Below, one piece after another: positions 12,727 through 52,166 of a stretch of 64,000 bases of DNA. The first letter of the stretch is position 1. The number at the start of each line of letters is the position of its first letter. Under the pieces are notes generated by a model. It searched no databases, was not told where the DNA came from, and saw only the letters and a program-made list of their open reading frames with translations. The stretch covers positions 1 to 64,000 of the forward strand of contig VBGR01000035.1 in assembly GCA_005880695.1 (NCBI GenBank), written 5' to 3'. Source of the DNA: Chloroflexota bacterium. Its GTDB lineage: Bacteria; Chloroflexota; Dormibacteria; Dormibacterales; Dormibacteraceae. The translations under genes were made by a program, and so were the position numbers.

Positions 12727-12819
<93 letters not shown>

Positions 12820-31222: not shown

Positions 31223-31264
31223 CGTTCTAAGCCGGCGCGGTGGCTTACCTCGGCCCCCTTACCT

Positions 31265-31420
31265 GGGGGGCTTTGCCCCCCCGACAACGCCGGCGTCAAG
31301 GCTCCGGCTCGCCTACCCTCGCCCGCCTCCGGCGGCCTTGACACCGGCGGCGCGGCGTGCTCCGCACGCCGCTGCCCCCCTACGGCGCCACTCGGCGCCG
31401 CCCCTGGCCTACGGCCGGGG
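31265..31420 (+). repeat. Structured multi-hairpin repeat, copy A
   Basis: In order on the plus strand: GGGGGGC-ttt-GCCCCCC (31265-31281), long-range arms GGCGTCAAG (31292-31300) and CTTGACACC (31337-31345), GGCGTGC-tcc-GCACGCC (31354-31370), GCTGCCCCCC (31371-31380), CGGCGCC-actc-GGCGCCG (31383-31400) and a final GC hairpin to 31420. The same plan, on the opposite strand, is at 51984-52126. It lies between moxR and DUF58. Confidence 0.75.
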
Positions 31421-31456
31421 CCCCAAATCCTGCCTCCAAGCGCGGGTCGCGCGAGG

Positions 31457-51964: not shown

Positions 51965-51983
51965 GGGTGGCCGCGCTAGAGGG

Positions 51984-52126
51984 CCGGCGCGAGTGCGCCG
52001 GAAGGGGGGCAGCGCTGCGCAAGGCGCAGCGCGCCGGCGGCGTCAAGACCGCGCGCAAGCGCGCCGCGAGCGCCAGCGAGCGGGTCTACGTCTTGACACC
52101 GTCGCATCGGGGGGGCGGAGCCCCCC
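51984..52126 (-). repeat. Structured multi-hairpin repeat, copy B
   Basis: On the minus strand the order matches copy A at 31265-31420: GGGGGGC-tcc-GCCCCCC (52126-52110), arms GGTGTCAAG and CTTGACGCC (52100-52092 and 52047-52039), hairpin GCGCTGCGC/GCGCAGCGC (52032-52012), GCCCCCC (52010-52004) and CCGGCGC-actc-GCGCCGG (52001-51984). Loops and stems vary but positions are kept. It lies between nuoJ and nuoK. Confidence 0.75.
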
Positions 52127-52166
52127 AGACAAGCGCGCGCGTGGACCCCAGCGGGGCCGGTCGGAG

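Follow-up and report, generated by a model that had tools for sequence, protein, structure and literature searches.

ERIC (IRU) sequences are palindromic, intergenic, co-transcribed, non-autonomous repeats of ~127 bp. They possess 7-bp terminal inverted repeats (TIRs), TA termini, a target-site duplication (TSD) and an orientation-dependent effect (PMC2229807). The YPAL (RU-2) repeat of Yersinia, which is ~168 bp long, palindromic and intergenic, has neither TA termini nor a proper TIR (PMC2229807), and REPs are 20-40 bp long and carry a GTAG or CGTC tag (PMC3733652). The repeat family reported here, from uncultured soil bacteria of the class Dormibacteria, is previously undescribed. It bears a likeness to ERIC but, compared by description only, has no TIR and no TA ends, a GC content of ~78% and, next to one or two of its copies, long direct repeats of the target. 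Judged in the same way, it is close to YPAL/RU-2 in size, palindromes and ends, although the host phylum differs. With the bacterial MITEs (ERIC, RUP and Correia type) it shares a length below ~200 bp, non-coding character, a dispersed intergenic location, and presence/absence polymorphism at orthologous sites; in contrast to those elements, it lacks terminal inverted repeats. MITEs typically have a short, fixed TSD (often TA); here, the flanks of two copies gave repeats of 53 bp and ~23 bp, and those of the others gave none that was significant and correctly placed. The REP/REPIN-RAYT systems likewise comprise mobile, dispersed extragenic palindromes, whereas the Dormibacteria repeat has five hairpins, no GTAG or CGTC tag at the hairpin foot (as judged from the alignment), and no Y1 (RAYT) transposase in its carriers.

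The window, i.e. the whole stretch of 64,000 nucleotides analyzed here, contains two copies, A and B, of this ~180-base, hairpin-packed, non-coding element, which show 72% identity over 149 bp (blastn, E 1.4e-11); further copies were matched by blastn at up to 89% identity. Members of the family are ~150-190 bp long and share the order left end (CTTACCT), H1, H2, H3, C6, H4, H5 and tail (CCCCAAATCCTGCCTCC). Reading frames are not preserved, as the alignment contains 1- and 3-base indels between copies. Copy A lies on the plus strand, taking the C-rich strand as plus, between the moxR and DUF58 genes of the minus strand, and was delimited at 31257..31437 by the blastn family, a covariance model match (31257-31424) and the tail. 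The first-pass annotation had given it as 31265-31420 and placed its parts correctly, but the true extent, ~31257-31437, adds H5 and the tail. H1 (31265..31281), a GGGGGGC-TTT-GCCCCCC hairpin with arms at 31265-31271 and 31275-31281, follows the left end CTTACCT; a scan for H1 with this left end hit 10 places in the window's own genome (G000) and 10 in that of a congener (G001). The long H2 stem (CCGGCGTCAAGGC / GCCTTGACACCGG, 31290..31347), with arms GGCGTCAAGGC and GCCTTGACACC, encloses GC-rich hairpins; family-wide, it reads GTCAAGRC/GYCTTGAC and its inner arms are of two types. It is followed by H3 (GCGGCGTGC-TCC-GCACGCCGC, 31352..31372), in which seven of the nine pairs show two-sided changes across the family, and by the C6 run (31375..31380), which is retained in nearly all copies and could compete with the C-arm of H1 for pairing with G6. 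H4 (CGGCGCC-ACTC-GGCGCCG, 31383..31400) occurs in at least three stem versions, with the ACTC loop common to most copies. H5 (CCCCTGGCC..GGCCGGGG) and the tail complete copy A (31401..31437), the tail scan placing the latter, GGGGCCCCAAATCCTGCCTCC, at 31417-31437.

Copy B, identified by blastn and the covariance model at 51982..52134, has its C-rich strand on the minus strand, between nuoJ and nuoK of the plus strand, and lacks H5 and the tail. Its H1 (52110..52126), H2 (GGCGTCAAGAC..GTCTTGACACC, 52039..52101), H3 (GCGCTGCGC/GCGCAGCGC, 52012..52032) and H4 (51984..52001) follow the order seen in A on the opposite strand. Every hairpin, arm and C run that the first-pass annotation described in A and in B (51984-52126) was recovered at its coordinates. 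Pfam searches likewise returned DUF58, MoxR AAA_3, NuoJ (Oxidored_q3) and NuoK (Oxidored_q2), the flanking genes named there. A search of Rfam at gathering and permissive thresholds gave no family match for the repeat; the sole Rfam match in the window is a tRNA gene (12731-12819, minus strand, RF00005, 53 bits). Variants of the element were also seen. The copy on contig C8 of G000 (L016:3985-4035) carries an extra palindromic insert, GGGGGACCCCATCCGGGTTGGGGTCCCGGATGGGG, in the H2 loop, and internally deleted short forms retain only H1 and H4/H5 (L047:1699-1755 on contig C114 and L059 at C80:65279-65385 of G001, L021 on contig C59 of G000), one of them directly beside a full copy.

The first-pass annotation had suggested a repeat family and named a covariance-model search as its check; that search does find more copies in the genome and in relatives. 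G000, a 2.82-Mb MAG (the median genome size of Ca. Dormibacteria is 2.87 Mb; PMC10608941), contains ~11-14 dispersed copies by blastn and the covariance model, 11 of them good and the others truncated, and G001, the single congener examined, has ~13 covariance model matches. Eight or nine divergent copies, which retain the inner core from H1 to C6, occur in three genera of another Dormibacteria family (4-5 in G046, three in G104 and one in G109). The carriers are thus five of the 110 class genomes searched with the covariance model, no copy being found in the remaining 105; a sample of 400 genomes from the phylum yielded three positives, each a known carrier. The large covariance-model runs used stricter Infernal filters, which weak members may have escaped. 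Pattern matching across 84,980 genomes of named species returned 11 stretches, eight of them in Dormibacteria; matches among Ca. Dormibacteraeota/Chloroflexi MAGs were S89_Bin_13, CF_121 and CF_120. Those in Microbacterium, a Myxococcales MAG and a Chloroflexi MAG were set aside as chance-like (at most 16 bits with the covariance model, none convincing). Plasmid, phage and viral collections contained no match to the family. Mean identity is 0.76 within G000, 0.75 within G001 and 0.76 between the two, and copies do not cluster by genome, which argues against a simple recent burst in each species. The carrier genomes are MAGs without exception, with several of the copies located at the ends of contigs.

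Comparison of G000 with G001 reveals a mixture of shared, inverted and vacant sites. The element has the same orientation in both species at copy A and at the sites on contigs C72 and C4, with a partial copy at C8, and the opposite orientation at C111/g50, C59/g33 and C99b/g76; G000 contigs C26 and C74 also present the same site with the element reversed, the flips involving g76, C26 and C74 being less secure because these lie at contig ends. A vacant or unrelated spacer was found in one of the two species at B, C93, C6, g28, g80, g80b and g114. Copy B is missing from G001, where an unrelated spacer occupies the junction. Three sites are cleanly vacant in the sister species: C93 (vacant in G001 C44), C6 (vacant in G001 C105) and g28 on G001 C28 (vacant in G000 C23), the flanking genes overlapping at ATGA in the first and the last. 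Presence and absence together with flips between sister species point to a mobile, selfish or neutral element and not to a conserved leader. Two pairs of G000 contig ends have the same flanking genes but different versions of the element (C26:19516-19650/C74:236-310, in opposite orientation, and C99:626-793/C46:198-347); these probably represent alleles of different strains in the MAG, or else effects of the assembly.

With neighbors called by ORF and GC-frame, a procedure that left some of them without a confident call, copies lie between co-directional or convergent genes, mostly just past stop codons, and no divergent junction was seen among copies with callable neighbors. Judging by the translations, the occupied junctions include obg-nadD, purQ-purL and pcrA-ligA, as well as rpsQ-rplN in the ribosomal operon of G046 (copy L095); another copy adjoins a gene for RNase J (Pfam). 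Downstream of L095 (G046 C177), rplN has ATA where ATG is expected, which could be an assembly error or an altered start codon. Divergent elements in two genera, L090 (G046) and L098 (G104), apparently occupy the same junction in the same orientation, between a gene ending in ..LSRVFPDRRA and an hpf-like gene (ribosome hibernation factor), names again being read from translations. Copies A and B are indeed alike relative to transcription, with moxR/DUF58 on the minus strand and nuoJ/nuoK on the plus strand, but the link between orientation and transcription drawn from them did not hold for the family: of 22 co-directional sites counted by hand, 12 are antisense (G-rich strand in the mRNA) and 10 sense (C-rich strand), and in the sister species the element is reversed at two or more orthologous sites that are well assembled.

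The element has no terminal inverted repeats, as the left end (CTTACCTGGGG) and the inward-read right end (GGAGGCAGGATTTGGGG) show no inverted match by eye. Target repeats were sought by comparing the two sides of each of 30 copies; mismatched pairs of flanks served as the control. In L145 of G046, a 53-bp direct repeat (X) abuts the element at both sides, in the order X, shortened element, X, full element, X; this order indicates that a later tandem duplication also occurred, and we infer the first insertion step there. L145 matches the model weakly (E 0.017) and was accepted because all parts are present. L095 has a direct repeat of ~23 bp (p ~0.002 against 870 control pairs), of a kind expected by chance about once per 15 such surveys given the 30 copies tested; in its favor are where it lies relative to the element and what it contains (the end of rpsQ, VEKVK-stop). 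The long target repeat is clear in L145 and probable in L095, its variable length being seen in these two copies of one genome, G046. The other copies had no significant, correctly placed flank repeat, and short matches at the ATGA overlaps of C93 and g28 are confounded by selection that keeps both genes intact. Flanking repeats of 53 bp and ~23 bp are unusual for cut-and-paste transposition.

The sequence differences between the stems of A and B had been read as selection for structure, and the structure is in fact maintained across the family. Against dinucleotide shuffles, copy A folded as RNA has z-scores of -4.7 on the minus and -6.4 on the plus strand; the DNA folding z-scores of copy B are -4.4 and -5.4. 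The model-fitted alignment of 29 copies has two-sided compensatory change at 20 of its 36 pairs, and standard pairs make up 93.9% of the pair cells. Its covariation score of 0.219 exceeds those of shuffled alignments (0.076 +- 0.008) and of slid partners (0.052 or less); such an alignment is biased towards the model's own structure, but an independent MAFFT alignment agrees (0.214). Among 987 cells on the C-rich strand, 25 intermediates are A-C and six are G-T; 11 of the 25 A-C cells trace back to a single pair in copies that are related, and removal of this most frequent pair leaves 14 versus 6 (p 0.12). Since A-C corresponds to G-U on the opposite strand, the excess is a hint that folding takes place in the G-rich strand. 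These features would fit a cis-acting RNA element, active in the G-rich strand and kept by selection in polycistronic mRNAs for processing, stability or differential expression, and at A, B and 10 more co-directional sites the mRNA does carry the G-rich strand. However, the same stem changes can also come from template switching in palindromic DNA, the C-rich strand is in the mRNA at the 10 other co-directional sites, the host genes are unrelated, and a structured cis-RNA would be expected to keep a fixed orientation to the transcribed gene and not to be flipped, or altogether missing, at orthologous sites. We consider this explanation unlikely. In this family, compensatory change coexists with mixed orientation and presence/absence, so it is insufficient as proof of an RNA function.

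Two other functional readings appear less probable still. GC-rich intergenic hairpins, some of them between convergent genes (C99a/C46 and C111), would suit a module that terminates or attenuates transcription in both directions, yet no hairpin is followed by a U-run, for which reason a Rho-independent terminator was rejected, and strong termination should be harmful at rpsQ-rplN and in the nuo, purQ-purL and obg-nadD junctions. The copy inside the ribosomal operon makes a strong terminator there unlikely, though it may have modest effects, and such a module has very little probability as an account of the family. A trans-acting non-coding RNA gene in several copies would explain the conserved multi-hairpin architecture with its near-invariant GTCAAG..CTTGAC and C6; against it stand the unrelated intergenic sites, the many truncated copies, the patchy distribution and the fact that a non-systematic look revealed no promoter of its own, and we regard it as highly improbable.

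The option of a mobile repeat, which the first-pass annotation had listed among others, agrees with the dispersed copies, their presence or absence in the sister species, and their occurrence in both orientations, so that the family is likely to be a non-autonomous, structured, mobile intergenic repeat with ERIC/MITE-like behavior. One point against a mobile DNA element is the G-U skew on the G-rich strand (25 versus 6 cells), which is unexpected for a purely DNA-level palindrome. As a mobile repeat, it would have spread by copying to gene junctions in a few Dormibacteria, where it would be tolerated, with an enzyme acting in trans that may recognize the folded strand and insert the element with DNA synthesis that duplicates the target. 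After insertion, template switching at hairpins or recombination may keep the stems palindromic and exchange them between copies, which would explain the compensatory changes as well as the chimeras and the flips. In a yeast study, template switching homogenizes the arms of inverted repeats and inverts the spacers (PMC8604942). At the valS site of G000, a half in which the tail and H5 are reversed is joined at H4 to a forward half, and C111 has possible tail remnants outside a flipped core; such chimeras and remnants, together with whole stem versions swapped in both arms, fit template switching or recombination through palindromes. A possible effect on the mRNA would be secondary.

As for the source of the enzyme, no Y1 transposase (PF01797) was detected in the five carriers (MAGs 81-94% complete, positive controls recovered), and an IS200/IS605/REP origin was dropped accordingly. 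Scans with the tail motif and the left end returned only known or partial copies, and a longer autonomous element with the same ends was dropped as well. Alternatively, the element could be a bacterial counterpart of SINEs, its G-rich strand being transcribed, folded and then copied into new sites through target-primed DNA synthesis, for which it would borrow an enzyme in trans. Like such insertions, it is structured and non-coding, has no TIR and is flanked by long target-site repeats of differing length; it differs in having no A-rich tail. We see this as a slim chance. If true, it would account for the long variable target repeats, the lack of TIRs, the constant 3' (H1) end and the variable 5' (tail) end.

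For the study of operons, the family means that even perfect compensatory changes are, by themselves, no proof of RNA function. If long target repeats turn out to be the rule in it, its way of inserting would differ from the one known for bacterial MITEs. The family adds to the described repeats a GC-rich, multi-hairpin and probably mobile element of uncultured Dormibacteria that does without the usual hallmarks of MITEs.
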